A stretch of DNA of 20,175 bases. Origin: a virus. This document shows positions 3,159 to 20,175 of the stretch, in pieces; position 1 is the first letter of the stretch, and each line of letters starts with the position of its first letter. A program made the translations under genes and the position numbers. The DNA lies in IMG/VR virus record IMGVR_UViG_3300027977_000246, positions 1 through 20,175 of that record. The stretch is one strand, 5' to 3'. The notes beneath the pieces were generated by a model. It ran no database searches. It was not told the DNA's origin and saw only the letters and a list, made by a program, of their open reading frames with translations.

Positions 3159-4385
3159 TTACCTCTTAATAATACTCACAGCGACCTCACCGTGCTTGAA
3201 GATGATGTCCGTCACGTTCTGGACTGCCTTCGCAGTGCCCGCAGAAGCACGGTCAAAGACCGGGCAGACTACCAGACCATAGGATTTAGCATACGAACCC
3301 AAATCGCCTGCCTGAAGCGTCCCAGAGCGGATTCCAGCAGCGTCTGCAGGGTGAAGACGCAGAGTCCTGCCGACCGTCTGACCGATGCCCACAACGTCCA
3401 TAGAACGCATAAAGACCACTGCCTCCAGAGCAGAAATGTTGATGCCTTCTGCCAGAATACTGTGATGAAGAACAATGAACTTCTTGTCAGCATTCTTACC
3501 CCAAGCATTCAGAGTATCAAAGAACTGCTCACGATTGACCTTCTGACCGTCAATAAAAGCACCGTGCTTCGCAGTGATATGAAGCACAGAATAACCCTGC
3601 TCGGTAACCTGATTCGCAAAATCAGATTCAGACAACAGAGCAATGATATGCTTGGTTGCCTTCGCACAAATCAGAATCTTGTTAACAGGATGCTCGGCAA
3701 TCGTTTGGAGCAGATACTCACAGTCCCGTTGAGCAATATCCTCACCCTTGACCGAAAGACGCATTTGCTTTGCGACTACTTGAGGAGGAATGATATAACC
3801 ATTCTCCACCAGTTCGGGAGCAGGAACCTTTGCGATGATGTTGCCATAGACAGCAGCATCATTCATACCGGGTTTGGAAATCGTCGCAGAATACTTAGGA
3901 GTTGCAGTAAAGAAATAGCAACGATCTGCTTCTGAAGCAAAATGCTCAACAGCAGGAAAGAAATCACGACGCACTGAATTATGTGCTTCATCCATATAAA
4001 TGGTATTGACAGGAATATCAGCACGAACAATCTGCTGCAGGGAGTTGTAAGTGGTAAAGATCAGTTTGTGACCTTCTACAGCATCATGCCAAGCACGAAT
4101 CACATTTGGACTAGTGCTGCTAAAGTGATGCGTCTCTCCCGTGTGGACATGCATCACGTGAGCGTTAGTGATGAACTCCAAGTATTCTGAAGACAACTGC
4201 TCGGACAAGAGGATGCGTGGGCACACCACTACAATGGTTTGAGGAGTTTCTTTGAGAAACTGATGCATCGCGTCAAAAATTCCCACATTGGTTTTTCCTG
4301 CTCCTGTTGGCATCACTACAATACCTTTAAGATATTGTTGCAGAGCGTCAAGAGTAGATTGTTGGTGAGGACGGAGTTGAATCAC
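3159..4385 (-). CDS. Superfamily 2 DNA/RNA helicase
   Basis: 408 residues with a GTG start at 4383-4385. SF2 motifs in order: Walker A PTGAGKT (26-32), motif Ia region VCPRILLSEQ (55-64), DEAH box (132-135), motif III FTATP (159-163), and motif VI QTVGRTLR (336-343). It is shorter than T4 UvsW (about 500 residues) and resembles the compact type III restriction/DEAD-like helicases, so I do not give it the uvsW symbol. It should unwind or remodel nucleic acid with ATP. A consensus -10 with extended TGn lies 24 nt upstream. The stop is 3 nt before the nuclease candidate and its last codons supply that gene's Shine-Dalgarno. Base composition is clearly richer in G+C than the two genes downstream. 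Confidence 0.88.
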   Translation of the reverse strand: MIQLRPHQQSTLDALQQYLKGIVVMPTGAGKTNVGIFDAMHQFLKETPQTIVVVCPRILLSEQLSSEYLEFITNAHVMHVHTGETHHFSSTSPNVIRAWHDAVEGHKLIFTTYNSLQQIVRADIPVNTIYMDEAHNSVRRDFFPAVEHFASEADRCYFFTATPKYSATISKPGMNDAAVYGNIIAKVPAPELVENGYIIPPQVVAKQMRLSVKGEDIAQRDCEYLLQTIAEHPVNKILICAKATKHIIALLSESDFANQVTEQGYSVLHITAKHGAFIDGQKVNREQFFDTLNAWGKNADKKFIVLHHSILAEGINISALEAVVFMRSMDVVGIGQTVGRTLRLHPADAAGIRSGTLQAGDLGSYAKSYGLVVCPVFDRASAGTAKAVQNVTDIIFKHGEVAVSIIKR

Positions 4386-4938: not shown

Positions 4939-5496
4939 TTATTCTTGAATTAAACCCCAAGAAGATAAAATATATTTTGTTTGATTTATAGGTGGATTTC
5001 CTCTGTGAGTATGAGTAAATCCTGCAGGAAAAATAATAACTCTACCTGCCTGTGATTTGACTCTCTTATTTAAATATAAGAACTCGGTTTCACCACCTTC
5101 TTCAATTTCATTCAAATACATTTGAACCACAAAAATTCTTGATGCCGAACATAAATTAGCACTTTCATAATGCCAATCGTGAAATCCTCCACCAGCAGGA
5201 ATTTTCTTTGCTTTTACATCATAAATCAAAAACTTTCCTTTTGATAAAATACTGTATGTTGAAATATAATCATTGACACAATTTTGAATTGCTGGAAAAA
5301 AATGCTCTCCAATCCAAGTCCAAGCAGATAAATCATAATTATGAGACATATTATTAAACTTATGATCTATTCTATGACTTTTCTCATCTGCTTGAAAAAT
5401 CATTGTATTTTTTTCTAGTTCTTCAATATAGTTTATAAAGTAATCACACTCTTGATGTGATAAAACATTGTCATAAATTGATAAAAAATCTTTCAT
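4939..5496 (-). CDS. 2-oxoglutarate/Fe(II) oxygenase, prolyl-4-hydroxylase type (HxE)
   Basis: 185 residues, ATG at 5494-5496. The double-stranded beta-helix motifs are visible: iron ligands H109 and E111 (in FHDWHYE), strand region IFVVQMYLNEIEEGGETEF (121-139), GRVIIFPAGF (151-160) and distal histidine 162 or 164 in THTHRG, followed by K174, the likely 2-oxoglutarate anchor. The acidic ligand is Glu rather than the usual Asp (HxE). Length is normal for phage P4Hc-type enzymes. It lies between the 115-residue hypothetical and a glycine-rich fibre gene. Such enzymes hydroxylate proteins or other substrates; here a fibre protein is a reasonable but unproven target. Confidence 0.85.
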   Translation of the reverse strand: MKDFLSIYDNVLSHQECDYFINYIEELEKNTMIFQADEKSHRIDHKFNNMSHNYDLSAWTWIGEHFFPAIQNCVNDYISTYSILSKGKFLIYDVKAKKIPAGGGFHDWHYESANLCSASRIFVVQMYLNEIEEGGETEFLYLNKRVKSQAGRVIIFPAGFTHTHRGNPPINQTKYILSSWGLIQE

Positions 5497-5511
5497 TGAA
5501 ATTAAATTAAG

Positions 5512-6513
5512 TTAAGTTACTGAACCATTATACTGTATTGCACCTTGTAATGTGCCACTTCCGGAAATTGTAACTGATCCGCTGCCAGAAGTTACAATAA
5601 TTCCGTTTCCATTTGAACCTGCAGGTCCTCCTCCTCCACTTGTTACATTTCCACTTCCATTTGCTCCGTTTTGAGCAGCATTGCTTGGATCTCCACCTGC
5701 ACCACCTGCTCCAGCATTCGCTCCGCCACCAGAACCACCACCACCACCTAATCCTCTAACTGTGGCAGTTGAATCATTTCCATCAGCACCTACTCCACCA
5801 AATCCATAATATCCACTAGTAGTAGTAAATCCTTTTGTTCCTATAGAAAGTCCAGCACCACCTCCACCACCTCCACCAGAGGATCCAGCATCTTGTTGGT
5901 TTTTATCTGGGTCATTAGCAGCATTTCCACCCGCGCCACCGCCACCATAACCACATTGAATGTATCCATTATTAATCAAAGTTGCTCCAGAATATTCTAT
6001 TCCTAAAGCACTTGTTCCATTTCCACCTGCACCACCGTTTGCATTTCCTCCCTGACCACCAGCACCAAAAATTTGTCCTGAAGAACCAATATCTAATTGA
6101 AGAGTTGTTCCCGATTCCCAAGATCCAGTTCTTAATGCAACGTTACTTACAGATCCTGATGCAGATCCAAAAGTTTTATTAACATTAATAAAGATTTTTT
6201 TTCCAGATCCACTACCGGGAGCTCCTCTAAATCCTCCTATAACTCTTAAATTATTGTTATTATATTTTGCTCGGGCATTGACCCTAAACTCCGTTGATCC
6301 AGAATAACAATCAACAACAATATTTAATCTTTTACTGTAGAAATCAGTGAATCTAATCTGACCAGATTGGGGAATTCCACTATCAAGTGGTAGATTGCTT
6401 AAAGATCCTACACTTTCAACAACTCTATATGATCCAAGTCTATTGCCACTTGGAACTCCAAATTCATCTGCAATTTGAGAAAAACTTATTTGCCCAGAAC
6501 TTTGAAGTGCCAT
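5512..6513 (-). CDS. Glycine-rich tail fibre / adhesin protein, 333 residues
   Basis: ATG at 6511-6513. The N-terminal part (1-75: GQISFSQIADEFG, SNLPLDSGIPQSGQI, KRLNIVVD) is a domain it shares with the 413-residue protein at 18331-19572. From about residue 150 the chain is dominated by glycine runs (GGAGGNG, GSSGGGGGGGAG, RGLGGGGGSGGG) separated by short aromatic or acidic pieces, like the polyglycine-II sandwich of T-even gp38-type receptor-binding adhesins. It ends SGSGTLQGAIQYNGSVT. The likely role is host-surface recognition at a fibre tip; the gp38-like comparison is by composition, not homology shown here. A perfect late promoter lies 21 nt upstream. The C-terminal half is almost duplicated at the right end of the window. 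Confidence 0.82.
   Translation of the reverse strand: MALQSSGQISFSQIADEFGVPSGNRLGSYRVVESVGSLSNLPLDSGIPQSGQIRFTDFYSKRLNIVVDCYSGSTEFRVNARAKYNNNNLRVIGGFRGAPGSGSGKKIFINVNKTFGSASGSVSNVALRTGSWESGTTLQLDIGSSGQIFGAGGQGGNANGGAGGNGTSALGIEYSGATLINNGYIQCGYGGGGAGGNAANDPDKNQQDAGSSGGGGGGGAGLSIGTKGFTTTSGYYGFGGVGADGNDSTATVRGLGGGGGSGGGANAGAGGAGGDPSNAAQNGANGSGNVTSGGGGPAGSNGNGIIVTSGSGSVTISGSGTLQGAIQYNGSVT
5942..6024 (-). repeat. 83-bp block identical to 18764-18846
   Basis: Within the glycine-rich adhesin gene this stretch, encoding the GTSALGIEYSGATLINNG region, matches the paralogue at 18764-18846 base for base by reading both. The flanks are also similar but diverged. It is a likely site of recombination or gene conversion between the two fibre genes. 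Confidence 0.85.
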
Positions 6514-6532
6514 TTATGACCGACTTTTCTTT

Positions 6533-7228
6533 TTATTTATAGGTTTTCCAGTATTTTTGGGAAATATATCCCATTGAATGAGACAAATATTCTTCCTTTA
6601 AAACTAATGTTACATCACCAATGATTGCCAATCTTTCACCTTCAAAATCAGAACTCATAGCACTTGTCGAATGTGTAATTTTACTTGGAAAAAGAATAAT
6701 ATTTCCTTCATTCGGAACCATAAAAAATGTTTCACAATTTACGTTATTGTAATCTTTAACAAATTGCCTAGAATAATCTTGATGGTCTTTTGTCATCCCA
6801 AGAAATAAACTATTTGGCAAATGTTGATTTGAAAATTTCAATGCATGAGCATTTTGTGGAACATTTACATAATATGCAAAAGAAATGTGACTGGTTGAAT
6901 GAATATGCCAAGGAATCTCATCTTTTGAATTTTGGGATCTCGATAACCAAGTTTTAGTAATAGCAAAATCAAAAACATCTTTCAGCAATAGAACATTTTG
7001 AGCATAATTTTTAATATGCTCAACAATTTCTTCAAATAAAGGATTTAAACTTTCCTCTAAATGTAATAAAGGATTACCAACATTTTCACTGACAGTCGTG
7101 TTAAATTGATCCCTTTCCCAATCATATTTTGGATAAACTTCATAAAATGATTTTTTATAAGTTTTATGATTTTCAATTTCTCCAACATAAGCAGTTGTTG
7201 GAAAAAAATTAATAACTTCAAAATTCAT
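6533..7228 (-). CDS. Putative 2-oxoglutarate/Fe(II) oxygenase, HxH type
   Basis: 231 residues, ATG at 7226-7228. The sequence IPWHIHSTSHISFAYYV (105-121) has the H-x-H arrangement and following strand of the TIGR02466/2OG-FeII_Oxy_5-like family. It is followed by NEGNIILFPSKITHSTS with distal histidine 186, and by R199 in ERLAIIGDV as the likely 2-oxoglutarate anchor. These are the expected four positions, although HxH rather than HxD means the first-site ligand set is atypical. The N-terminal 100 residues are less distinctive (starts MNFEVINFFPTTAYVG, which is typical of this family). It sits between two fibre genes, as such enzymes often do in cyanophages. Substrate unknown; virion proteins are a plausible target. 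Its stop codon forms a late promoter. Confidence 0.75.
   Translation of the reverse strand: MNFEVINFFPTTAYVGEIENHKTYKKSFYEVYPKYDWERDQFNTTVSENVGNPLLHLEESLNPLFEEIVEHIKNYAQNVLLLKDVFDFAITKTWLSRSQNSKDEIPWHIHSTSHISFAYYVNVPQNAHALKFSNQHLPNSLFLGMTKDHQDYSRQFVKDYNNVNCETFFMVPNEGNIILFPSKITHSTSAMSSDFEGERLAIIGDVTLVLKEEYLSHSMGYISQKYWKTYK
6534..6541 (-). promoter_or_regulatory. T4-type late promoter TATAAATA
   Basis: A perfect TATAAATA on the minus strand, 21 nt upstream of the glycine-rich adhesin start. It is made of the last codons and TAA stop of the upstream gene (TAT AAA TAA). T4-like phages read this motif with the gp55 late sigma factor. Confidence 0.75.
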
Positions 7229-7234
7229 AGTGTG

Positions 7235-9220
7235 TTATACCGAAGTGCCGCTAATATATTTCCATCCAGCAGTGGATGCATCATAATATTCTAAACGATT
7301 TAAAGTAGTATTATACACCATAGCACCACCTAACATACCAGTCAAATTATTTCTTTGCGTCGTAGTCACTCTTGGTGGATACATATACATTTTATTTGCA
7401 AACGCACCGGTCAATTCCTTCCCAGCATCTGCAAAATCAACAACAGATCTTAACGAAGTGGTTCCCACCCCAACACTACCAAATATGGCACTTGTTGTTA
7501 AAGCATCAAATCCTATACCATTTGTGATAGAAGATGTTTTAACTCCAACAGATCCTTGTGGATTAACAATAAATCTACTAGTTGGAGATGAATTAATTTC
7601 TAATGGATTATTGTTTGGATTTGTCGTTCCAATTCCAACAGAAAAATCAAATAATGCCCTGTCTGTAACTTGGATATCATTAAAAGTAGAAATTCCAGAT
7701 GAAGCGTTTACATTTCCAGTTAAATTACCAGTTACATTTGCAGTTATAGCACCTAATACAAGAGATCCATTAATAGTTAAATCACCACTTATTTCTACAT
7801 TATTTCCAAAGTAAGCATTGGATGTTATAGTTGATGTTCCAACAACGTGTAAAGTATTGACTGGATTTGTAATCGCAATTCCCAACTTACCATCATAAGT
7901 AAGTGCCATCAATCTAGCAAAATTCTTTCTTCGGTGCCAATAGAAGTTTCCAGTGCCAATTCCAGGAGTTCCTGCTTCCAAATAGAAGTTTAAGTTTCCG
8001 GTAGAATAGTTGATAATGTCAAGAGAGGTTCCATTACTGTATGGAAAAAGACCAGAAGTGTTTCCAAATCTTAAAACACCATTTGAAGTTTCTAAAGAAT
8101 TGCTTCTTCCAATTGAAATTACTGCCGATTGAGTGTCACTTGTAACTAAAATAGAAGCAGCAGTAGCATTTTTAATTTGGAAATCTCCAATTGGGAGATT
8201 AGTTCCAATACCAATGCTAGTTTGAGAAACTAAAGTTGTAGTTGTAGTGAGACCAGAAACGCCAAGAGTTGTTGTAGTTATAATACCACTTGCGTTCAAA
8301 TTAGAAGCAGTTATATTTGCAACCGTAATAGATGGACTTCCAGTAAGAGATTGTGCTGTGCTGGCAGTTCCTGTTACATTACCAACAAATCCTCCAGATG
8401 CCGTAATAATACCAGAAACATTAATATCACTTGGTAATCTAGAGTTTGATAAAGTTCCAGAAGAAATATTAGAAGCATTCAGTTGAGTAATACTAGACCC
8501 AATTCCGTCAAAACTTGAAGCAGTTACAATACCAGAAACATTAATATCATTTGGTAATCTGGAGTTTGATAGTGTTCCAGAAGAAATATTAGAAGCATTG
8601 ATTTGCGTAATGCTAGATCCAACTCCATTAAAACTAGATGCGGTTACAATACCAGAGATACTAATATCACTTGGTAATCTAGAGTTTGATAGTGTTCCAG
8701 AAGAAATATTGGAAGCATCGATTTGCGTAATGCTAGATCCAACTCCATTAAAACTAGATGCAGTTATGATTCCGATATATGTTGCATTTCCATTACTATT
8801 GATTGTGACTGCAACACCAACTTGGAAATTGCCGGTTGGAAGAGTTGTTGCTATTCCAACATTTGATGTTGTAGAAATATTACCACCAGAAACATGCCAT
8901 CCATCAACAGCAATCGCATAAATGTTTGTTAGTCCTGCTGCGTCTCCATAAAAAGTTGTTGCAGTAACGACCCCAGAAGCATTGATATTTGTCGCTGATA
9001 AAACTCCAACTGTGCTAATTCCAGTAACATTTAAATTTCCAATATTTGCACTTGTTGCAGTGACTAGTCCTGTAACTCTAGTGTCTCCGTATACATTCAA
9101 AAGATAAGATTCTGGAATCGTTGTTCCAATTCCAACCAAACCATTTGCATTGACTATGAAATTATCATTATCAACCTGAACACCATTTCTAAAATTAAAG
9201 GACTTATTGTAATTTGCCAT
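7235..9220 (-). CDS. Repeat-rich tail fibre protein, 661 residues
   Basis: ATG at 9218-9220. Low-complexity Ser/Thr/Asn/Gly/Ile sequence with many short beta repeats typical of elongated trimeric fibres (VGIGTTIPESYLLNVYGD, ISTVGVLSATNINASGVVTA). It contains three 40-residue repeats with SSITQINASNISSGTL (8402-8761). The C-terminus (RVTTTQRNNLTGMLGGAMVY followed by NTTLNRLEYYDAST) is the fibre-end motif often seen in cyanophage fibres, and there is no S74 chaperone domain. Expected to be a long or side tail fibre. A near-consensus late promoter (GATAAATA) lies 17 nt upstream. There is only a weak Shine-Dalgarno (AGAAG). The stop is 6 nt before the next gene, so the genes are likely co-transcribed. 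Confidence 0.85.
   Translation of the reverse strand: MANYNKSFNFRNGVQVDNDNFIVNANGLVGIGTTIPESYLLNVYGDTRVTGLVTATSANIGNLNVTGISTVGVLSATNINASGVVTATTFYGDAAGLTNIYAIAVDGWHVSGGNISTTSNVGIATTLPTGNFQVGVAVTINSNGNATYIGIITASSFNGVGSSITQIDASNISSGTLSNSRLPSDISISGIVTASSFNGVGSSITQINASNISSGTLSNSRLPNDINVSGIVTASSFDGIGSSITQLNASNISSGTLSNSRLPSDINVSGIITASGGFVGNVTGTASTAQSLTGSPSITVANITASNLNASGIITTTTLGVSGLTTTTTLVSQTSIGIGTNLPIGDFQIKNATAASILVTSDTQSAVISIGRSNSLETSNGVLRFGNTSGLFPYSNGTSLDIINYSTGNLNFYLEAGTPGIGTGNFYWHRRKNFARLMALTYDGKLGIAITNPVNTLHVVGTSTITSNAYFGNNVEISGDLTINGSLVLGAITANVTGNLTGNVNASSGISTFNDIQVTDRALFDFSVGIGTTNPNNNPLEINSSPTSRFIVNPQGSVGVKTSSITNGIGFDALTTSAIFGSVGVGTTSLRSVVDFADAGKELTGAFANKMYMYPPRVTTTQRNNLTGMLGGAMVYNTTLNRLEYYDASTAGWKYISGTSV
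8402..8761 (-). repeat. Three tandem 120-bp coding repeats
   Basis: Inside the 661-residue fibre gene a unit encoding about 40 residues (GSSITQINASNISSGTLSNS, then RLPSDI and SGIVTASSF) occurs three times with an exact 120-bp period, recognisable at 8461, 8581 and 8701. The second and third copies are the most alike. Such repeats allow length change by recombination. Confidence 0.88.
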
Positions 9221-9236: not shown

Positions 9237-12200
9237 TTATTTATCTTGAAGTTGTTGCTCAAGATTTTCTACTTTACTTGACAACTCTTTGATTGCCTCC
9301 ACAAGAAGTGGAACAAGTTTTTGATAATCTACTGCCAAGTAACCATTGTCTCTTTCAGTAACTGCTTCTGGAAGAACTTCATTTACTTCTTGTGCGATTA
9401 GACCAACATCATGCCCCTCTCTGGATGTCTTTTCATTCCAATCAAAAGTATTACCACTGATTGATAAAACTTTTGCTAGCGAATCACTAATTGGAGTAAT
9501 ATTATCTTTCAGTCTTCTATCAGATGTATAGAATGCAATAATATCTTGAGTAACTCTTAATTCACCATTGACTGTAGTAACATCAGAATTTGAATCGCCC
9601 AGAGTTGTATTTCCATTGACATTTAATGTTCCAGCGACTGTTGCGTTTGATCCAGAAAGACTAATCGCTGCAGCACCTGTAGAGGATTGAATATCATTTC
9701 CATTAATACGAATGTCACCAGCAAATGTGGTTAATGTATTTGAAGTTAAACTGATGTTATTATTACCATCAGATGCTTGAATATCATTACCAGCAATTCT
9801 AATGTCGCCAGCAAATGTAGTTAATGTATTTGAAGTTAATGTGATATTAGTATTTCCGTCAGATGCTTGAATATCATTACCATTAATTCTCAAGTCATTT
9901 GCAACAATTAAATTATTGGCAGTTGTTACATTATTTGCTGAAAGACTAATCGCTGTAGCACCTGTAGAAGATTGAATATCATTACCATTAATTCTCAGGT
10001 CACCAGTAATAGTAAGATTATTCGCAGTCGTTACATCAGTTCCAGAAAGACTAATCGCTACTGATCCACTAGAAGATTGAATATCATTACCATTAACTCT
10101 AATATCACCAGCAAATGTAGTAAGTGTATTTGAAGTTAAGGTAATATTTGTATTACCATCAGATGCTTGAATGTCATTTCCACTGACTCGCAAATCGCTA
10201 CTTATATTTACAATTCCAGTTCCATTTGGAGTAATTGTAATACTACCATTGGTATTTGTGGCACTTAATGTATTTCCATCCAATTTAAGGTTATCAACAT
10301 CGAGTGATGTATTCATATTAACACCACCAGTAAAAGCAGTGTTTCCACCAACATTCAAATTCTCAACAATTCCAACGCCGCCTTTAACAGTTAGAGCACC
10401 CTTACCAACAGAATCTGAAGATGTTGTATTGGTAATTCTAACTTGACCGCTAAATGTTGCAGCATCTTTTGATCTAATTTGCTTGTTAAATGTAACTGGA
10501 CCATCAAACTGAGAAAGAATTGTTCCAGAATCTCCACCTTCTACAAGAAGTCTTTCTTTAACAGTGACTTCATCATAAACTACACTGGACTTGGAAGGAT
10601 CTTCACCAGTAACGGTAGGAGTTGGAATATCATATGACGTAACTTCGCCTGAAGTTGAAGATGTTTTGGTGTTTCCACTGAAGAAATCACCACTATTATT
10701 CATACCAGTATAAACAACTATACCACCTGCCCTTTCTTGAGATTGAGCAAGGAAATCTTCTCTTTCTGTGAGAGATTTAACTTGAACTTGAGGGAGACCT
10801 GTAGAATAGTTTCCGGGACCATATCCAAGATATTCAAATGTATGACCAGAAGCACGAAGAATGGATGGTCTGCGAAACTCAACAGGGATTGGAGTAATCT
10901 TACGAATCAGTGATCCTGCATCATGACTTTCTTTTCTAGTTCCAAGAACACCACGAATTACAGTGAATTGTGAATTATTACTTGAGGAAGTAATTCTCAT
11001 CACCTCACTATCAACTTGAATGTAAGATCCCATTGCGAATCTTGCACCAGTTCCAATACCAGATGTGATTGTCGAATCAACTTGGACTGTCGTTGCAGCA
11101 GAGTCATCAGAAATTGCAGTTGTAAGTCTTACAATTTCATTTCCATAAAAAGATGTTTGACGAACACCGAAGTTTTCTTCTCTAACATCGGAAATTGCAT
11201 CATTTGCAGAAAGGCCGTGTTTTAATACAAAACCATTTACAACACTCAAAGATTTATTTGTTGTTGCTGTGAATGTTGTGATGCCAACTCTTTCTTTTAC
11301 AATGTAATCTCCAACATTATTATTGGAAGAATCAATGATTCTAAATTTATTACCTGCAAGTAATCCGTGAGGAGTTACCGTTGTGAATGTTCCGATTCCA
11401 GTTGCAGAACTATAACTTGTTGCAGTAATTCTTGCAGATGGTCCTACAATAAAGACGTATTCTCCAATAACTGGTTCTGGATCACCAGCAGTTTTAGCAA
11501 TGGAGATTTGAGTTGCGGAACCAACTGCACTGATTCGATGATAAGAATCTGCAGTTGTTCCAATACCAGTAATTTGAACAACATCTCCAACACTTGTAGA
11601 AATACCAGCAGTTGATAGAGTATATCTAGCATTACCATTACCAGATCCAATTCTGGTATTATCAAAGAACAATGCCTCTGCATTTGCATATCCAGAACCT
11701 GATGAAATAATATCAACAGAAGTTACTGCACCACCAGAAACAACAACTTTTGCGGTTGCCCCTTTCCAAGTTCCAACAAGTGGATCTGCATTGCTGTTCA
11801 GAAGTTTAACATCATAATAAGTTCCATCCGTATAAGATGCTCCTGCAGTAATCGCACCAATAGCAATTGCACCTAGTCCGTGCCTTCTACCAAATGTAAG
11901 AGTTGAACTTGTTGATGTTGTCGATGTTGCGGTAATAGATTGTCCAATTCCTAAAGATTTGGTAAATTTATCAATTGTTTCTCTAGTGATACTTTTTTTC
12001 AAATCACTTGTATTTGTATCACCAATTGGAGCACGAAGAGCAAATGTCTTTGCTGCTGGAGGATTTGCCTCAACATTGTCTCTGTCTAACTGTGGATAAA
12101 GATCAACAGGACTTTGAGAATATTCAAGATTGACAAATTCTTCTGGAATTCCATTACTTGCGTTTAAAACATACAAGTGATAAATCCCATCTTGTTGACC

Positions 12201-15053
12201 TTCAACATATGGAGAAATGACCTCATTTCTATAAACATACAGATTTTGTTGAAGATCATTTCTTTCAAATCGTGGTAGATCCCTGACTTGATCATCTGTA
12301 ACTCTCAAATCAATATTGTTGGTGCTTGTTGCTCCCGGAGTATGAACTCTACCACTCAAATCAGTTGTAGAGTATGTAAATGACATATCATTTACGACAG
12401 ATACAACACGGAACCTTCCATTGTATCCACGATTATCTGTTCCAGGTAAATTATTACTATCAGTTACATTCTTAACAACAACAATATCTCCAATATTTAA
12501 ATCATGAGGAAGTTCTGATAAAACCGTAACGGTATTTGAACTTACGGAACAAGTCGTAATGAATCTTTGATTCTTGTTGTAGTTATAATCTGTGCTTGCA
12601 ATACTTGTTCTTGTGAAATCATTCGGTCTTGCACCCGTTGTGCTTGAATCTTGAATGATGAATCCTTGTTCAGGATCTTTTGCAGCAGAAAGTTCTTTTG
12701 GAATTACTGCTCTGATTTTATAAACTCTCTCATCCAAACTTCTCTCATCGACAATTCTCTTAACATAAGTCAGATCTGTTGTTTCACCTAACTCTGCCAC
12801 TCCCAATGCATTCAGTTGATTATAAATCTGATTTGCACTGTTGACTGTGATATACCAGTTTCCTGCTGTTGAGTTAAATTGAATTGGTGATCCAATATCT
12901 CCTGCAATTTTATCAGAAACTCTACTATAAACTTTGAGTTGAGTTCCACCATAAAGAGTCAATGCCTCATTATTCAGAGCATTGGTAAATGATGTTGCAA
13001 GTTTGATTTGAGTTGAATTAACACGAATCGCATAATAAACAATGTGTGGAGTTACGTTTTCTGGAAGATCTCCAGTTTCACTATTGATAATAATCTTTTC
13101 ACCAGTTTGAAGTGTATGAGATCCAAGAGTTAGAATGGAAGATGACACACTAGTTACATTATATGTCTTGACGGAACTTGTGATTCCATCCTGCATATAA
13201 ATGTTTGCAGAATATTCGGTAGATCCAATAGAGAGATATAACTTATCATCAACTCTTGCACCGATTCTATAACCTTGTGTGACACTTACAGGAATACTAT
13301 CAGAAGCGTTCAGACCAAAAAGATACAGATGAGTTGTAATACCAACAGAAGTTGTTAGACCAACGTCAATTGACAACCATTCAATATCTTCTTCTACTGG
13401 ACTAATATCTCTTGGAGTAATGATAGAGGTAATGAAAGCATTATTATCCTTTGTAAATGCTTCTGCCTTATATCCATCAGAGTTAAGTGAGATTTGACCA
13501 AAGTTAGAGTTAGAGTTGGTAATTGAAGCATCACCACCAGACTCAAGGTCAAAGTGTTTGTTGAATCCAATTGCAAAAACTGAAACAACTTGAATGAAGG
13601 AGTCATTAGTCACCTTAATGTGACTCGTCTCCCACCCATGACGATAGATAGCATTTGGATCTAAGTGATAAACCTTTGTTGTATCAGTTTGAGACGCACC
13701 TGTTGGCAGATTTCCACCATAAACTGTGTTATAAATGACACCATTATAAGTTCTCGTTTCCTTATCATACTTTACAAAAGCACGATCATCTTTCTGAAGC
13801 GACACAGCAGTGAACTGTGCGACGACCATAGAACGGAATCCTGACGCTTTACTTCCATCAGCGTGCATTCCGTTCATACCCCAAACCGATCTTAATGAGC
13901 AGTTAAAGATATAAGGAGAAGCACCAGATACTGTATCAGTTTCTACAGTTACAGTTGCTCCCGAAGCACTTGGATTGGCAGGAAGAGTAATCGGGAAAGT
14001 TTCAAGTAGATATGTAAATTGAGTGTCACTAATAACAGATTGAACAATTGAAGCAATGTTATATTCTGGTGCTGAAACTCCTTTAATTTTGATCGGAGTT
14101 CCTAGATTCAGACCATGTGCTTCTGATGTTGTTACCGTTACTTGAGTGCTTGCAGTTGTTCCGTTTCCAGAAATAATGGATGAAATTGAAACAGGGTCTG
14201 AAGCAAAAGCACCAACAATCTGCCATTCTGGATTTCTCTTTGCAAAGTCCTCATTGCTTGCAGGAAACTTTGCAGTCGTTGGAATTGGACGATATGAATT
14301 AAAAGCGTTTGACAGTTTGCTATAATACATATCAAGGTCAGTCAGACCATAAGTGCCAACTTCATTGACACCATCAGCATATTCAAAACAAGTCAGTTTG
14401 TGGTGAGAGAATCTTGGTGTGGATTGGTAGTTACTTGTAAAAAATGATGGGTGAGTATAAACGAGACCTGTGTCATCACCATCAAAGAAAGAAAACTGCC
14501 AGAAGTAACATGCACCAGTAACTCTAAAGATTGCTGATTTTGCAACTAAGTCATCAGTTGGATTGGGAACATATTTTGGCCTAACCTTTGTCTTTCTTAA
14601 GTCTAGACCAACAATCGAAGTTCCTCTTGGAACTACAACACCCCCATTAACACTATTAAACTTATAAAGAATATTGTCTTCTTGTGTGATATCAAAATTT
14701 GAATCTAATTCAAGTGATAAAACTCCTTGTGCTGGAGATCCTATACCACCTGTTGGGGGGACAGTATATGCAGTTCCACCATTATCATAGATTGCATATC
14801 CTGGACGGTTGTCAATTACATGCTCACCAGGCCAAACCAAAATCGTTGTTTTTTCTACTAAATCATTATCGCTCCCATTTACAAAAGAAAATCTTGCTGC
14901 TTCTAACAGTGCCCTTTGAATTGTCTTGAATGGTTGAGCAAGAGAATTGCCAGTATTAGTAATTGAATCAGTGGCATCTAAATCATTCGGATTGACGTAT
15001 AGTGTGCGACCGTCAGTATTCTTAATGAAATTCGATAATTTGTTCAGTGGCAT
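9237..15053 (-). CDS. Giant fibre / virion structural protein with peptidase-S74 chaperone domain, 1938 residues
   Basis: ATG at 15051-15053. The N-terminus (DGRTLYVNPND, AQPFKTIQRALLEAARFS, TTILVWPGEHVIDN) looks like the start of a right-handed parallel beta-helix. The long middle is beta-rich, with many Ser/Thr strands. Near the C-terminus six GNDIQ repeats follow. The last 96 residues are an S74 intramolecular chaperone: SDRRLK carries the Ser-Lys dyad (S1844 and K1849), then AQEVNEVLPEAV and a terminal coiled coil (LVEAIKELSSKVENLEQQL). By analogy with endosialidase and T5 L-shaped fibre, this domain trimerises the fibre and then cuts itself off. It is almost certainly a virion component, probably fibre or baseplate-attached. 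It is the largest gene in the window and has no frameshift. Confidence 0.92.
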   Translation of the reverse strand: MPLNKLSNFIKNTDGRTLYVNPNDLDATDSITNTGNSLAQPFKTIQRALLEAARFSFVNGSDNDLVEKTTILVWPGEHVIDNRPGYAIYDNGGTAYTVPPTGGIGSPAQGVLSLELDSNFDITQEDNILYKFNSVNGGVVVPRGTSIVGLDLRKTKVRPKYVPNPTDDLVAKSAIFRVTGACYFWQFSFFDGDDTGLVYTHPSFFTSNYQSTPRFSHHKLTCFEYADGVNEVGTYGLTDLDMYYSKLSNAFNSYRPIPTTAKFPASNEDFAKRNPEWQIVGAFASDPVSISSIISGNGTTASTQVTVTTSEAHGLNLGTPIKIKGVSAPEYNIASIVQSVISDTQFTYLLETFPITLPANPSASGATVTVETDTVSGASPYIFNCSLRSVWGMNGMHADGSKASGFRSMVVAQFTAVSLQKDDRAFVKYDKETRTYNGVIYNTVYGGNLPTGASQTDTTKVYHLDPNAIYRHGWETSHIKVTNDSFIQVVSVFAIGFNKHFDLESGGDASITNSNSNFGQISLNSDGYKAEAFTKDNNAFITSIITPRDISPVEEDIEWLSIDVGLTTSVGITTHLYLFGLNASDSIPVSVTQGYRIGARVDDKLYLSIGSTEYSANIYMQDGITSSVKTYNVTSVSSSILTLGSHTLQTGEKIIINSETGDLPENVTPHIVYYAIRVNSTQIKLATSFTNALNNEALTLYGGTQLKVYSRVSDKIAGDIGSPIQFNSTAGNWYITVNSANQIYNQLNALGVAELGETTDLTYVKRIVDERSLDERVYKIRAVIPKELSAAKDPEQGFIIQDSSTTGARPNDFTRTSIASTDYNYNKNQRFITTCSVSSNTVTVLSELPHDLNIGDIVVVKNVTDSNNLPGTDNRGYNGRFRVVSVVNDMSFTYSTTDLSGRVHTPGATSTNNIDLRVTDDQVRDLPRFERNDLQQNLYVYRNEVISPYVEGQQDGIYHLYVLNASNGIPEEFVNLEYSQSPVDLYPQLDRDNVEANPPAAKTFALRAPIGDTNTSDLKKSITRETIDKFTKSLGIGQSITATSTTSTSSTLTFGRRHGLGAIAIGAITAGASYTDGTYYDVKLLNSNADPLVGTWKGATAKVVVSGGAVTSVDIISSGSGYANAEALFFDNTRIGSGNGNARYTLSTAGISTSVGDVVQITGIGTTADSYHRISAVGSATQISIAKTAGDPEPVIGEYVFIVGPSARITATSYSSATGIGTFTTVTPHGLLAGNKFRIIDSSNNNVGDYIVKERVGITTFTATTNKSLSVVNGFVLKHGLSANDAISDVREENFGVRQTSFYGNEIVRLTTAISDDSAATTVQVDSTITSGIGTGARFAMGSYIQVDSEVMRITSSSNNSQFTVIRGVLGTRKESHDAGSLIRKITPIPVEFRRPSILRASGHTFEYLGYGPGNYSTGLPQVQVKSLTEREDFLAQSQERAGGIVVYTGMNNSGDFFSGNTKTSSTSGEVTSYDIPTPTVTGEDPSKSSVVYDEVTVKERLLVEGGDSGTILSQFDGPVTFNKQIRSKDAATFSGQVRITNTTSSDSVGKGALTVKGGVGIVENLNVGGNTAFTGGVNMNTSLDVDNLKLDGNTLSATNTNGSITITPNGTGIVNISSDLRVSGNDIQASDGNTNITLTSNTLTTFAGDIRVNGNDIQSSSGSVAISLSGTDVTTANNLTITGDLRINGNDIQSSTGATAISLSANNVTTANNLIVANDLRINGNDIQASDGNTNITLTSNTLTTFAGDIRIAGNDIQASDGNNNISLTSNTLTTFAGDIRINGNDIQSSTGAAAISLSGSNATVAGTLNVNGNTTLGDSNSDVTTVNGELRVTQDIIAFYTSDRRLKDNITPISDSLAKVLSISGNTFDWNEKTSREGHDVGLIAQEVNEVLPEAVTERDNGYLAVDYQKLVPLLVEAIKELSSKVENLEQQLQDK
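9238..9245 (-). promoter_or_regulatory. Near-consensus late promoter GATAAATA
   Basis: Seven of eight bases match TATAAATA. It overlaps the last codons and stop of the 1938-residue fibre gene (GAT AAA TAA) and lies 17 nt before the 661-residue fibre gene. Confidence 0.5.
9640..10200 (-). repeat. Six GNDIQ repeats in the giant fibre gene
   Basis: The codons for the motif (R)(I/V)xGNDIQ recur at about 9687, 9777, 9867, 9972, 10077 and 10167, i.e. spacings of 90, 90, 105, 105 and 90 bp (30- and 35-residue units). Some units are almost identical at DNA level, which indicates recent duplication or conversion. They form the shaft just above the S74 domain. Confidence 0.88.
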
Positions 15054-16089: not shown

Positions 16090-16173
16090 TGCTTCGGAGG
16101 AGATTCGAACTCCTAATCCCATACGGGCGCGACATTTTAAGTGTCGAATGTATACCAATTCCATCACCGAAGC
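16090..16173 (-). tRNA. tRNA-Leu (anticodon UAA)
   Basis: 84 nt on the minus strand. Acceptor GCTTCGG (5') pairs with CCGAAGC (3') and the discriminator is A. The anticodon arm is CGACA, loop CTTAAAA, TGTCG, giving anticodon TAA. A long class II variable arm (CGCCCGTATGGG) and the T arm AGGAG-TTCGAAT-CTCCT are visible. CCA is not encoded. It would read UUA, a codon favoured in the A+T-rich genes here. Its own promoter lies directly upstream. Confidence 0.95.
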
Positions 16174-16182
16174 GATAAGACC

Positions 16183-16211
16183 ATAATAACTCATAGAGTC
16201 TTTACGGTCAA
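16183..16211 (-). promoter_or_regulatory. Sigma70-type promoter for tRNA-Leu, TTGACC-N17-TATTAT
   Basis: On the minus strand TTGACC (16206-16211) and TATTAT (16183-16188) are separated by 17 nt, five of six matches in each hexamer. It begins directly after the tRNA-Ile 3' end, and the expected start is a few bases before the mature tRNA-Leu. Confidence 0.65.
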
Positions 16212-16284
16212 TAGGCAGGGAGGGGCACGATCCCTCATAACTCCGTTATAAGCAGAGCATTTTGACCATTTAAATTACCCGCCC
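16212..16284 (-). tRNA. tRNA-Ile (anticodon UAU)
   Basis: 73 nt on the minus strand. Acceptor GGGCGGG pairs with CCTGCCT (two G-U pairs), discriminator A. D stem ATTT/AAAT with GG in the loop; anticodon arm CTCTG, loop CTTATAA, CGGAG, giving anticodon TAT, which reads AUA. T stem GAGGG/CCCTC with the unusual loop ATCGTGC (normally TTC-purine-A). CCA is not encoded. The variable loop is four bases. The unusual T loop lowers certainty about efficiency, not about the gene being a tRNA. AUA is frequent in A+T-rich phage genes and rare in many Synechococcus. Confidence 0.88.
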
Positions 16285-16286
16285 AT

Positions 16287-16723: not shown

Positions 16724-16752
16724 ATTATAGGGCATCTGGGGGCGGGTGTCAA
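16724..16752 (-). promoter_or_regulatory. Perfect sigma70 promoter, TTGACA-N17-TATAAT
   Basis: On the minus strand TTGACA (16747-16752) and TATAAT (16724-16729) have full consensus and a 17-nt spacer. It drives the two-gene antitoxin-like unit. The -35 contains the TGA stop of the upstream oxygenase gene (16749-16751). Confidence 0.9.
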
Positions 16753-17345
16753 GCGTTGTGGTCAATGACATAATACCAAGTCACCGCAACCCGTTTTTTA
16801 CCACTCAAAACTTTCTGACCAGAATGTGGAAAACTCCAATTTGATGGGAAAAATAATCCACATCCTGCAGGTGGTTTAAAAGTTTGATGGGGAAATTCAG
16901 TGCCACCGCCTTCAAAATCACTATTTAAATAAACAACAACAGATATTTGTCGATGATATTCCTTTGAATTTGGATTGTTTGAAACATCATGATGAAACTT
17001 ATATTCCTGATTTGGATGATACTCCAAAACTTGAATTGCTTCTCTATGTGAAGTTGTTCCATATCCACCAGGAACTGGATAATATTCAAACATTGCATTA
17101 ATTTTACAAATTTTTTCTTTATAAACTAAAAGAGACTCATTTATTTTATCATGAAGAAGTTTAGTTGCATCATGATCTTCATTCATAGAAGATCCTAGAC
17201 TTGACCTAACAGAAGTATCAATTCTTGACTTTCCATCAGAATCAAATACTGTAGTTTCTTGAAAATACAAAGAATCAATATATTTGTTTATTATTTTCAA
17301 TTCTTCACTATTAATAACTTCAATAATTTGAATTAAGTCGTTCAT
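16749..17345 (-). CDS. 2-oxoglutarate/Fe(II) oxygenase, prolyl-4-hydroxylase type (HxD)
   Basis: 198 residues from the ATG at 17343-17345. Motifs: iron ligands H118 and D120 (YKFHHD), strands ISVVVYLNSDFEGGGTEF (134-151), GCGLFFPSNW (161-170), distal histidine 174 in FPHSG, and K184 ten residues later, the expected 2-oxoglutarate anchor. This is a complete canonical P4Hc core. An earlier in-frame start at 17393 is rejected because it would overlap the sulfotransferase gene by 35 nt. It is the last gene of the right-hand operon (collagen-like fibre, glycine-rich fibre, sulfotransferase, this enzyme), which suggests the substrate is a fibre protein; the collagen-like Gly-Pro repeats are an obvious candidate. 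This is inference from context. Confidence 0.88.
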   Translation of the reverse strand: MNDLIQIIEVINSEELKIINKYIDSLYFQETTVFDSDGKSRIDTSVRSSLGSSMNEDHDATKLLHDKINESLLVYKEKICKINAMFEYYPVPGGYGTTSHREAIQVLEYHPNQEYKFHHDVSNNPNSKEYHRQISVVVYLNSDFEGGGTEFPHQTFKPPAGCGLFFPSNWSFPHSGQKVLSGKKRVAVTWYYVIDHNA

Positions 17346-17358
17346 AAAAATATAGTAT

Positions 17359-18300
17359 TCAAAAAAGTTCAATCGAATAATCAAACATCTCAAATTCTTC
17401 CAAACATCTTTTTTGTATTGCTTTCATTGATTCTTCAGTATATACATCAGTATAATTTTTTCCAGGAATATCATTAAGTTTATTATCTGACCATTTTACA
17501 CCATTTTGTTCAAAGAAAAATTTAACATCAGTATTCAAATCCTCAAATTTCATAACTTTAAGACGTTCATTTTCCCCCTTAACAAAGAATGTTTGTTTTT
17601 GCATAAAATAATAATGATCATAATTTCCTTCAGATAAAGAAATTGCAAAATCATTGAAATTAGTTTCTACTTCAGGAAATTCTAAATTTCCAGGAAGACC
17701 ATAAACTCTAGACCATTTCCATAGACTATAAATTCTATCATATGGATTTCTAACAACAGCAATAAACTTAATTCTTTCATCAGTTACCAATTCAATATGC
17801 TTTTTTACAAAAGAAATGCTAGGAGCATTTTTAATTGGAGTAGAAAAAATTTTATTATTAACAAAAGGATCTAAAATTTTAGATGTTTCTATAGATTCTT
17901 TAATTCTAGATTTTATAAAGGTGCCAGCAGTTTTAGGAACATGAATATAAATCCATGCTTCTTTGTTTTCATTTTGAGAATTTAAAATATTAGTTAAAAT
18001 TTCATCATTGGTAGAACTACTACTTCCATTTAAAATATATACTTGTTTGGTTTCATCAAAGACTACATCTGGAAAATTTTCTTCGGTGTAAGGTTCTAGT
18101 GCATCAAGATATGGTTGTAAAATTGAAACATCATTAAAAAATGTATCAGTTATAGAACCTTCTTTAAATTGAACAATTCCTTCTCCATCTTGCCATTCTA
18201 TAGATTCTATATGGTTATCATTAAAGTTCCATTCTGGAATATTTAATGATGCCTCATCCGTTTTTATCCACCTCATTGATGGGACAATAGTTATTTTCAT
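17359..18300 (-). CDS. Sulfotransferase with extra N-terminal domain
   Basis: 313 residues, ATG at 18298-18300. Residues 117-313 carry the PAPS-binding signatures of the Sulfotransfer_2 type: the 5' phosphosulphate loop HVPKTAGT (120-127), the 3' phosphate motif RNPYDR (184-189) and the FED segment (252-254), ending in a CLEEFEMFDY helix. It should transfer sulfate from PAPS to a hydroxyl or amino group. Residues 1-80 (MKITIVPS, IESIEWQDGEGIVQF) form a separate domain of a kind I associate with tail-fibre-linked phage proteins that start MKITIVPSD and contain an I..IQW segment; recollection, not a search. The fusion suggests delivery of the enzyme to a fibre or virion partner. Composition is A+T-rich like its neighbours. 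A near-late promoter lies 23 nt upstream. Confidence 0.85.
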   Translation of the reverse strand: MKITIVPSMRWIKTDEASLNIPEWNFNDNHIESIEWQDGEGIVQFKEGSITDTFFNDVSILQPYLDALEPYTEENFPDVVFDETKQVYILNGSSSSTNDEILTNILNSQNENKEAWIYIHVPKTAGTFIKSRIKESIETSKILDPFVNNKIFSTPIKNAPSISFVKKHIELVTDERIKFIAVVRNPYDRIYSLWKWSRVYGLPGNLEFPEVETNFNDFAISLSEGNYDHYYFMQKQTFFVKGENERLKVMKFEDLNTDVKFFFEQNGVKWSDNKLNDIPGKNYTDVYTEESMKAIQKRCLEEFEMFDYSIELF

Positions 18301-18322
18301 AATTACTAATTTATTTCCTGGA

Positions 18323-18330
18323 TATTTAGA
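18323..18330 (-). promoter_or_regulatory. Near-consensus late promoter TCTAAATA
   Basis: Seven of eight bases match TATAAATA, in the gap between the glycine-rich fibre gene and the sulfotransferase gene, 23 nt before the latter's ATG. Confidence 0.45.
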
Positions 18331-19572
18331 TTATGTTACTGAACCATTATACTGTATTGCACCATGTAATGTGCCACTTCCTGAAATTGTAACTGACCCA
18401 CTGGAAGAAGTTACAATGATTCCATTTCCATTTGATCCAGAAGGTCCTCCTGCTCCAAGACCTTGATTGCCAGCAACTCCATTTTGTCCATTTTGCGGAT
18501 TATTGCTGGGATCTCCTCCAGGACCACCTGAACCAGCAACTGCTCCACGACCATTACCACCAGGACCGCCCAATCCTCTAACTGTAGTTGTTGCATCATT
18601 TCCATCAGCACCTCTCCCACCAAAACCATACCTACCATTATCTGACCCAAATCCCTTTGTTCCCACAGGGAGTCCAGCACCTCCTCCACCACCTCCACCG
18701 GAGGATCCAGCATCAGTTTGATTTTTATCTGGATCATTAGCAGCGGTGCCACCTACTCCTCCTCCACCATAACCACATTGAATGTATCCATTATTAATCA
18801 AAGTTGCTCCAGAATATTCTATTCCTAAAGCACTTGTTCCATTTCCTCCAGGATTTAAAGTATATGAACTGAAGGTTGCACTCCAATTTCTACGTGCTTC
18901 ATATCCATTAAATCCACCTTTACCAGCTGGAATAAAAGCAGGATTTCCAGGATACCAACCAGAAGTCCAATCTCCTGCAGGTGGTCCAGGTTCTACCCCC
19001 TTACACCAAATTGGACCAGCCAGACCATATTTCGTTTCTCTGTAATGAATACAATATTCAGCATAAACGACAGTTCCACTTTGAGTTGTTGTGGTTACAC
19101 TATAGTCTCCACCTCTACCACCAGCACCAAATATACTCGCACCTGATCCTAAAAGAACTTCAAGAGATGCTGATGTTCCCCAAGTGCCGGTTCTCAATGC
19201 AACATTACTTATAGGTCCAGTAGCAGATCCTATTCTTTTGTTGACACTGACCAGTATTCTTTTTTGACTTGGATCTGCAGGTTTAGATCTAAATCCCCCA
19301 ATTACAGTAACACCACTATTAGTATCATACTTTGATCTCATATTAACTCTATATTCATCACCACCAGAAATATCTACGACGACATTTAATCTTTTTCCTC
19401 TCAATTGACTAAAACTAATTGGTCCACTTTGAGGAATTCCAGTATCAAGAGGTAAATTTGAATACAATCCAGCGGACTGTGATATTCTATATGACCCCAA
19501 AGATTTGGTGCCATTTCTTCCAAATTCCGATTCGATGTCAGAAAAATTTATAATACCAGTTGGAGTAGGCAT
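18331..19572 (-). CDS. Glycine-rich tail fibre / adhesin protein, 413 residues
   Basis: ATG at 19570-19572, preceded by AAGGAG nine bases away. It is a paralogue of the protein at 5512-6513: similar N-terminal domain (IINFSDIESEFG, LPLDTGIPQSGPISF, KRLNVVVD), diverged middle, and almost the same glycine-rich C-terminus ending SGSGTLHGAIQYNGSVT. Between FGAGGRGG and GGNGTSALG it carries about 85 residues absent from the paralogue, rich in Trp, Tyr, Pro and with two Cys (VVYAEYCIHY, LAGPIWCKG, PPAGDWTSGWYPGNP). The insert probably forms a separate surface loop or small domain at the receptor-binding tip. The likely role is host recognition. It lies 13 nt downstream of the collagen-like fibre gene, so it may be its tip protein. 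Confidence 0.84.
   Translation of the reverse strand: MPTPTGIINFSDIESEFGRNGTKSLGSYRISQSAGLYSNLPLDTGIPQSGPISFSQLRGKRLNVVVDISGGDEYRVNMRSKYDTNSGVTVIGGFRSKPADPSQKRILVSVNKRIGSATGPISNVALRTGTWGTSASLEVLLGSGASIFGAGGRGGDYSVTTTTQSGTVVYAEYCIHYRETKYGLAGPIWCKGVEPGPPAGDWTSGWYPGNPAFIPAGKGGFNGYEARRNWSATFSSYTLNPGGNGTSALGIEYSGATLINNGYIQCGYGGGGVGGTAANDPDKNQTDAGSSGGGGGGGAGLPVGTKGFGSDNGRYGFGGRGADGNDATTTVRGLGGPGGNGRGAVAGSGGPGGDPSNNPQNGQNGVAGNQGLGAGGPSGSNGNGIIVTSSSGSVTISGSGTLHGAIQYNGSVT
18764..18846 (-). repeat. 83-bp block identical to 5942-6024
   Basis: Second copy of the identical block within the paralogous adhesin gene, directly adjoining (on the low side) the region that encodes the unique 85-residue insert (about 18850-19105). 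Identity ends abruptly on both sides. Confidence 0.85.
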
Positions 19573-19585
19573 TAGAAAAATCTCC

Positions 19586-20175
19586 TTACTTTAATTTTTT
19601 TAATTCATCAATTTCACTTTTCAATTCTTTAATTGCTTCAATTAAAAGTGGAACAAGTTTTTCATATTTAACTGTTAAATAATTTTCATCAGATGCTGGA
19701 ACTACAACTTCAGGGAGAACTTTTTGAACTTCTTGTGCCGACACACCAGAGTGTCTTATGTTTCTATCAAATCCAAGTTCTTCACCAATTTCATTAAAAT
19801 TATATGTAAATCCTGTAAGAGAAATAACTTTCGCCAGTGGATTATCTATAATTTCAATATTTTCTTTAAGTCTTTCGTCAGAAGCAAATGCAGTAATATC
19901 TCCAGCAACAACTAAATTTCCACTATTATCAATTGTTCCAATATTAACATCTGCAGCACTTCTCCACTCATAACCGTTTGCAGATCCAAAATAAGTTCTG
20001 CTGTTAGAAGCAAAATAAAATCTATTTCTATTATCGGGCGTTTTTAACCAAACATCATTTTGTAAGAAAGCCGATGCTGAAGGTCCTGGAGGACCAGTAG
20101 GACCAGTAGGACCAGAAGGACCTGTGGGTCCAGTGGGACCTGTGGGACCTGTGGGTCCAGTGGGTCCAGGAGATC
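19586..20175 (-). CDS. Collagen-like tail fibre with peptidase-S74 chaperone domain, N-terminus outside window
   Basis: 195 codons are visible plus TAA at 19586-19588; the frame is open to the window edge. Order: ten consecutive Gly-Pro-X triplets (mostly Gly-Pro-Thr; 20078-20167), a short linker (ASAFLQNDVWLKTPDNRN), a small beta region (SGNLVVAGDITAF), then the S74 domain with SDERLK (Ser-Lys dyad), AQEVQKVLPEVV and a terminal coiled coil (LIEAIKELKSEIDELKKLK). The triplets predict a collagen-type triple helix, consistent with a trimeric fibre shaft; the S74 domain would assemble the trimer and cleave itself off. The S74 part resembles that of the giant fibre at 9237-15053. It is followed 13 nt later by the glycine-rich adhesin gene with a good Shine-Dalgarno. 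Confidence 0.9.
   Translation of the reverse strand, partial: SPGPTGPTGPTGPTGPTGPSGPTGPTGPPGPSASAFLQNDVWLKTPDNRNRFYFASNSRTYFGSANGYEWRSAADVNIGTIDNSGNLVVAGDITAFASDERLKENIEIIDNPLAKVISLTGFTYNFNEIGEELGFDRNIRHSGVSAQEVQKVLPEVVVPASDENYLTVKYEKLVPLLIEAIKELKSEIDELKKLK
20078..20167 (-). repeat. Collagen-like Gly-Pro-X triplet repeat (nine-base units)
   Basis: Ten Gly-Pro-Thr/Ser/Pro triplets encoded by GGN CCN ACN-type codons in a nearly perfect 9-bp tandem repeat that may continue beyond the window. It is a likely site of slippage and length variation. Confidence 0.9.

Follow-up and report, generated by a model that had tools for sequence, protein, structure and literature searches.

Mimivirus L230, a collagen lysyl hydroxylase-glucosyltransferase, is an example of a virus enzyme that modifies the virus's own collagen-like proteins. 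Soluble, single-domain prolyl 4-hydroxylases (P4Hs) with a 2-oxoglutarate (2OG) oxygenase fold have been described from Bacillus anthracis (PDB 3itq and 5hv0) and PBCV-1 (vCPH, 5c5t). The collagen-like side-tail fibres of E. coli prophages (EPcl proteins) carry triplets with proline mostly in position X, and the 2012 analysis of phage collagens that covers them stated that the prolyl hydroxylases needed for Y-position proline are absent from bacteria and viruses (PMC3368898). A 2022 survey concluded that the viral use of prolyl 4-hydroxylase "remains cryptic" (PMC9301287), and we found no published link between a cyanophage hydroxylase and collagen in the open-access literature, which is not proof of absence. 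Here we analysed IMG/VR record IMGVR_UViG_3300027977_000246 over its full 20,175 bp (the window), a Kyanoviridae cyanophage fragment most closely related, among named phages, to S-SRM01, a freshwater Synechococcus phage of the same family. On its minus strand, a four-gene cassette encodes, in this order, a collagen-like fibre with a Peptidase_S74 domain, a glycine-rich adhesin, a sulfotransferase and a 2OG-Fe(II) oxygenase that we named OGc. We propose that the cassette acts as a tail-fibre finishing module, where OGc would hydroxylate the collagen prolines and the sulfotransferase would sulfate the fibre or adhesin; we put the probability of this reading at roughly 0.62. The genes suggest a virus that completes its own fibres by chemical modification, in the way that animals treat collagen, and, judged from these sequences, the 2012 statement does not hold for these phages.

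OGc resembles the Bacillus and PBCV-1 enzymes in its fold, core motifs and soluble single-domain form, and they are its best sequence matches (2e-14 for the B. anthracis P4H and 4e-7 for the PBCV-1 P4H). Unlike them, it is encoded inside a phage tail-fibre cluster beside collagen-like fibres, and it is only about 20% identical to them. The E. coli prophage fibres share the window's X-position prolines, but occur without a prolyl hydroxylase. Mimivirus L230 differs in belonging to a eukaryotic giant virus, in targeting lysine and in being bifunctional. The closest counterparts are the cyanophage genes annotated as PiuC, an iron-uptake factor, or as ferrochelatase (PSSM2_031 in P-SSM2, 51% identical; AIX28586 in ACG-2014f, 44%), which are direct OGc orthologues with the same synteny, just before a conserved fibre gene; a link to collagen fibres is absent from their annotation.

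The earlier note on this DNA had described four consecutive same-strand genes encoding a Gly-Pro-Thr collagen-like fibre with an S74 domain, an adhesin, a sulfotransferase with 3′-phosphoadenosine-5′-phosphosulfate (PAPS) motifs and a complete HxD oxygenase of the P4H kind, and each of these observations held; absent from it were the second cassette described below, the chaperone domain of the sulfotransferase and the one GPP triplet. All open reading frames (ORFs) are present, with 13 nt between fibre and adhesin, 30 nt between adhesin and sulfotransferase, and 13 nt from the sulfotransferase stop codon to the start codon of OGc. The conserved OGc start is the ATG at 17345, rather than the TTG at 17393 with which the program-called ORF begins. 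The features are as follows.

19586–20175, minus strand: C-terminal part of the collagen-like tail fibre, 195 aa visible, 5′ end beyond the contig (Peptidase_S74, 2.2e-15, Pfam; PHROG tail fibre matches)
20075–20173, minus strand: collagen-like (GPT)n stretch, 10 visible triplets, with proline in X in 10 and in Y in 1 (GPP)
19703–19882, minus strand: S74 intramolecular chaperone domain of the fibre, residues 98–157 (Pfam)
18331–19572, minus strand: glycine-rich adhesin AdhB, 413 aa (paralogue of AdhA at 5512–6513; 81% identical relative in contig L004)
18838–19128, minus strand: AdhB insert lacking a counterpart in AdhA, residues ~149–245 (paralogue comparison)
17359–18300, minus strand: sulfotransferase fused to a tail-fibre-chaperone N-domain, 313 aa (Pfam, homologue comparison)
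18076–18300, minus strand: N-domain of the sulfotransferase, residues 1–75, common to stand-alone ~90-aa proteins and PF16778 tail chaperones
17920–17937, minus strand: 5′-phosphosulfate-binding motif PKTAGT, residues 122–127 (sequence)
17725–17751, minus strand: 3′-phosphate-binding motif RNPYDRIYS, residues 184–192 (sequence)
16749–17345, minus strand: OGc, P4H-like 2OG-Fe(II) oxygenase, 198 aa (Pfam, alignment, PDB, fold)
17193–17207, minus strand: P4H-type R-[ST]-S-x-G motif of OGc, residues 47–51 (alignment)
16986–16994, minus strand: HxD iron ligands of OGc, H118 and D120 (invariant in homologues)
16794–16826, minus strand: distal His174 and Lys184 (H+10) of OGc (invariant in homologues)

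The 10 visible GXY triplets of the fibre are uninterrupted and proline-rich; the gene is truncated by the end of the contig, which keeps its Collagen profile match (4e-4) under the Pfam cut-off.

Compared residue by residue, OGc is a complete oxygenase of the P4H type, as read from its sequence. It matches 2OG-FeII_Oxy_3 (1.7e-15, Pfam), and H118, D120, H174 and K184, together with the R-S-S-x-G stretch, are kept in 17 OGc homologues. The invariant residues and an AlphaFold2 (AF2) model (mean predicted local distance difference test score, pLDDT, 83.8) place the HxD...H iron triad in a double-stranded beta-helix. In P4Hs, a lysine ten residues after the distal histidine binds the 2OG C5-carboxylate, and arginine occupies this position in enzymes of the PHD2 and PiuC types; K184 is this lysine. 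A profile search of the PDB up to E 0.1 returned nine distinct sequences, all nine of them prolyl hydroxylases, including, after the Bacillus enzyme, Chlamydomonas P4H-1, the PBCV-1 P4H, human P4HA2 and P3H1. No PiuC structure was among these matches, so that closest kinship to PiuC was not found. The IRTSxG and EGLQVLxYxxxQxYxxHxD stretches near the peptide groove align to 3itq and to Chlamydomonas P4H-1 (2jig/3gze), and the top Foldseek matches of the model are PHD2, Chlamydomonas P4H-1 and the PBCV-1 P4H. We considered the P4H-only PDB matches as proof of OGc's specificity and rejected this, since OGa, a paralogous 2OG oxygenase in the window that is only 23% identical to OGc, also matches P4Hs best; therefore, the substrate cannot be read from kinship alone.

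The substrate is instead indicated by co-variation. We compared 83 loci, taken from among the matches listed, that share the following anchor fibre gene and extend at least 4 kb upstream of it.

9237–15053, minus strand: S74 fibre, 1938 aa, synteny anchor for the comparison (Pfam and homologue search)

A locus was called positive for proline-bearing collagen when it contained the motif GP[PTAS]GP[PTAS]G or at least 10 GXP triplets, the second criterion deciding one locus. Both OGc and proline-bearing collagen were found in 24 loci and neither in the other 59, with no discordant cases. The OGc-positive rows comprise 14 contigs and 5 isolate or single-cell records retrieved by OGc, 4 retrieved by the collagen pattern, and the window; no such row was picked on both. 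On the anchor tree, each trait changes 12 times, and both change in the same direction in all 6 independent pairs on supported branches (sign test, P = 0.031). The motif is present in 17 of the 19 contigs fetched by OGc alone, the other two being L009, with nearly proline-free GAQ collagen, and L019, which begins 85 nt before OGc; in almost all the OGc-fetched loci, the proline-bearing repeats lie in fibre genes just upstream. It is found in none of 50 anchor contigs lacking OGc, whose collagen-like repeats, where present, are mostly the proline-poor GTQ, GLQ or GIQ. Conversely, when contigs were retrieved by a GPPGPPG DNA pattern, blind to OGc, 6 of the 7 bearing the anchor carried OGc. The seventh (L144, G020), which lacks OGc, encodes a GPP-rich protein of 214 aa (3593–4237) near psbA and outside the fibre locus.

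The isolate records gave a similar picture. A score of at least 210 bits identifies OGc orthologues in six of 25 cyanophage records, namely P-SSM2, P-SSM5, ACG-2014f, S-CAM7 and two single-cell viral contigs; where annotated records were inspected, OGc comes shortly before the anchor fibre, and a single small ORF separates the two. The motif is present in 5 of the 6 OGc-positive records versus 1 of 19 OGc-negative ones (S-PRM1), and the sixth positive record, MH319755, has GNPGNDGTPG repeats with proline in Y 16 times. These results support well the earlier note's proposal that the phage may hydroxylate its own collagen-like fibre. They also ease its caution that proline sits in X: Y-position proline is found in nearly all OGc-bearing loci, and OGc is missing from S-PRM1, where nearly all collagen prolines are in X. 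The co-occurrence in related phages that it had asked about was found for the oxygenase with collagen, but not for the exact four-gene set, which was seen only in the window. The association is claimed within this cyanophage group only. A wider association of GPPGPPG with OGc across all viruses was rejected, as most matches come from unrelated phages lacking OGc; strong OGc matches occur in 2 of 40 GPPGPPG contigs lacking the anchor, and proline-bearing collagen without OGc is common outside the group. Within it, the PiuC and ferrochelatase labels of PSSM2_031 and AIX28586 look wrong, and the co-variation supplies a concrete substrate hypothesis for a gene so labelled in the cultured phages P-SSM2 and ACG-2014f.

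The sulfotransferase is tied to the fibres by its own architecture. Its residues ~111–311 match Sulfotransfer_1 (PF00685; 1.4e-6, 28.3 bits versus a cut-off of 22) and Sulfotransfer_2 (2e-4), and both PAPS motifs are complete. Residues 1–75 have homologues in the stand-alone ~90-aa proteins whose genes closely follow those of collagen fibres in L005, L009 and L012, as well as in the N-terminal half of proteins whose C-terminal half is Phage_tail_APC (PF16778), with E-values down to 1e-20. A profile of this N-domain (A3) scores 3e-35 in the sulfotransferase, itself part of the profile, and matches 8 PF16778 proteins. Pfam detected no PF16778 C-terminal domain in the sulfotransferase, with only the associated N-domain in common. 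In eight loci, P-SSM2 (PSSM2_030) among them, OGc is immediately preceded by the gene for a protein of the PF16778 type; in the window, the sulfotransferase occupies this slot where relatives keep the chaperone. The fibre chaperone gp25 of cyanophage Pam3 attaches to the fibre through its N-domain and forms trimers through its C-domain (PMC9608196). The window protein thus resembles gp25, phage Mu Tfa and other PF16778-family chaperones in N-domain and gene slot, and differs from them in that a sulfotransferase domain replaces the C-terminal chaperone domain. Because of this N-domain and gene slot, the fibre or adhesin is the probable destination of the sulfotransferase. This tie was not known before this analysis, and the fusion would be a new way of targeting a modification to a folding phage fibre.

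The contig with the closest relative of the sulfotransferase, L004, narrows the target. It shares the adhesin (81%), sulfotransferase (81%) and anchor (84%), and has an Ala-rich fibre without collagen and no OGc, whose place is taken by other small proteins, one of them a PF13640 2OG oxygenase. Therefore, sulfation would be tied to the fibre or adhesin rather than to collagen, it need not occur on hydroxyproline, and its target is more likely to be the adhesin or fibre tip. The earlier note's second proposal, sulfation of the fibre, is thus less certain than the first: the chaperone-type N-domain links the enzyme to fibres, but L004 lacks collagen. The Tyr-rich AdhB insert was rejected as a candidate sulfation site, since L007 and L010 have comparable Tyr-rich adhesin stretches but no sulfotransferase. 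A phmmer search for PDB relatives of the sulfotransferase returned only CheA matches, judged spurious, and a tblastn search with it against phage records found nothing.

A different target for the sulfotransferase, host surface glycans or a sugar made by phage or host rather than a virion protein, is unlikely but has points in its favour. Its best profiles are of carbohydrate type (phrog_3347 Galactose-3-O-sulfotransferase, Sulfotransfer_1/2), and it carries no motif of the protein-tyrosine type; a glycan-directed enzyme would not, however, be expected from the chaperone N-domain and slot, and five other contigs (L254, L256–L259) have repeat-rich, fibre-like, virion-like proteins interspersed with a 2OG oxygenase and a sulfotransferase of the unrelated PF13469 family.

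It is improbable that OGc and the proline-bearing fibres are simply neighbours that move together during fibre exchange, with OGc acting on a metabolite, a host protein, a nucleic acid or in a PiuC-like iron role. The two lie within ~0–5 kb of each other, orthologues are annotated as PiuC or ferrochelatase, and the OGc fold ties in Z-score with PiuC 9ghl. Against this, the collagen-bearing fibres have 15 C-terminal types, and therefore did not descend as a single block of genes, and none of the other neighbours of OGc that were tabulated is equally constant. The P4H R[ST]SxG motif and the lysine at H+10 are kept, and identity in structural alignment is 23–24% to P4Hs (24% to 3gze) versus 12–14% to PiuC (14%). 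In a bacterial and archaeal collection with one genome per species, unlike a host metabolic gene, OGc appears in only three stray contigs, binned to a Euryarchaeota metagenome-assembled genome or a Pelagibacteraceae single cell; all three hold collagen-like genes and one holds the anchor, and they are probably viral contamination.

Several observations weigh against the proposed finishing module. In the VIA-align comparison, the leading rows tie (Z 16 to 14.5 for OGc against PHD2, EF-Tu P4H and PiuC), and a P4H is also the best PDB match of OGa. The collagen threshold was fixed after the data were seen, the anchor sample consists of loci among the matches listed, and, given the proximity of OGc and collagen, joint transfer could be the source of much of the co-occurrence. 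Proline occupies Y in 1 of the 10 visible triplets of the window's cut-off fibre gene. S-PRM1 has proline-bearing collagen without OGc (GPKGEKGQKG repeats; proline 30 times in X and once in Y), and proline is almost missing from the collagen of two contigs with OGc (L009, 6 prolines in 222 triplets; L261, 12 in 172). The S-PRM1 pattern fits a Y-directed enzyme, but a strict rule of Y-proline only is weakened by L261 and L262; L009, L261 and S-PRM1 limit the rule that ties OGc to proline-bearing collagen. For the sulfotransferase, the combination of chaperone fusion and adhesin occurs in two contigs only (the window and L004), and its AlphaFold model, built from a two-sequence alignment, has a pLDDT of 30.7.

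Also rather improbable is that the 2OG enzymes hydroxylate fibres on Thr, Lys or Asn, as later sites for sugar or sulfate, rather than on proline. Threonine fills Y in the GPT repeats, Lys-rich GXK repeats occur in several OGc loci (L128, L134, L262), and the neighbouring glycosyltransferases and carbamoyltransferases need hydroxyls; but the co-variation is with proline content, Thr/Gln-rich GTQ/GLQ collagen is found in OGc-negative loci, and the GXK repeats of S-PRM1 occur without OGc. That metabolic genes came to lie here by chance, functionally unconnected to the fibres, is very improbable, even though cyanophages have many 2OG genes (up to 6 OGc-profile matches per isolate genome), given the perfect concordance across the anchor loci and the position of OGa directly after an AdhA-type adhesin in 16 of 17 cases.

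Under the finishing-module reading, fibre chains would be made with Gly-Pro-Thr and Gly-Pro-Pro repeats, and OGc would hydroxylate prolines of the unfolded chains using 2OG, O2 and Fe(II), most likely at Y as with collagen P4Hs, stabilising the fibre's triple helix. The sulfotransferase would dock through its N-domain on the folding fibre or the adhesin tip, in the manner of the Pam3 chaperone, and move sulfate from PAPS to hydroxyls on the fibre or adhesin, altering the charge at the receptor-binding end. The attachable enzyme would be exchangeable, with a glycosyltransferase, carbamoyltransferase, radical SAM enzyme or halogenase at or near the same place elsewhere.

The window holds a second, parallel cassette at 4939–9220, with the following genes.

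7235–9220, minus strand: fibre (phrog_3269; PHROG)
6533–7228, minus strand: 2OG oxygenase PF13759 (Pfam; halogenase at the equivalent place in S-SRM01)
5512–6513, minus strand: glycine-rich adhesin AdhA (paralogue comparison with AdhB)
4939–5496, minus strand: 2OG oxygenase OGa (PF13640; Pfam)

AdhA and AdhB are 82% identical in their Gly-rich C-terminal halves, and AdhB has no Pfam match. The 17 OGa orthologues counted above score over 150 bits, and the 16 loci with an AdhA-family adhesin are the window, L019, L020, L023, L026–L028, L050, L057, L062, L078, L079, L082, L083, L095 and L097. OGa and this adhesin family may form a second cognate enzyme-adhesin pair.

Other modifying enzymes lie beside OGc: a glycosyltransferase near it in ACG-2014f and S-CAM7, a carbamoyltransferase 10 nt before it in L020, and a 468-aa radical SAM protein overlapping it in L006. 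Taken together, these arrangements raise the tentative idea, to which we give somewhat less than even odds, of an exchangeable cyanophage post-translational toolkit for receptor-binding organelles, with a cognate oxygenase for each fibre or adhesin type (OGc for proline collagen, OGa for the Gly-rich adhesin) and a second-step enzyme (sulfotransferase, glycosyltransferase, carbamoyltransferase or halogenase) deliverable by a fibre-chaperone domain. If so, the chemistry of the fibres would be diversified besides their sequence.

Further loci contain related genes. In S-SRM01 (NC_070963, 41680–43137; L003, 21681–23138), a tryptophan halogenase lies between fibre gp051 and adhesin gp053, a position that suggests a virion-protein target for cyanophage halogenases. 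In L006 (2383–5425), a 74-aa peptide ending NCNCNCVCACNC is encoded near a PF13759-like 2OG oxygenase and the radical SAM protein; by sequence, these genes resemble a set for ribosomally synthesised and post-translationally modified peptides inside a phage fibre locus. In L256, a carbamoyltransferase-like gene follows the module of fibre-like protein, PF13469 sulfotransferase and 2OG oxygenase. A weak JmjC/cupin match (7.5e-4, below the cut-off) at 2948–3541 of L012, beside a collagen fibre and a chaperone-N-domain protein, is a possible further hydroxylase.

Directly after OGc, the window carries a promoter match that leads into a small ORF (16698–16489) and is the likely start of the next transcription unit.

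16724–16752, minus strand: sigma-70 promoter match, 12/12

Genes for tRNA-Leu(taa) and tRNA-Ile(tat) lie beside the fibre cassette at 16090–16285 on the minus strand.

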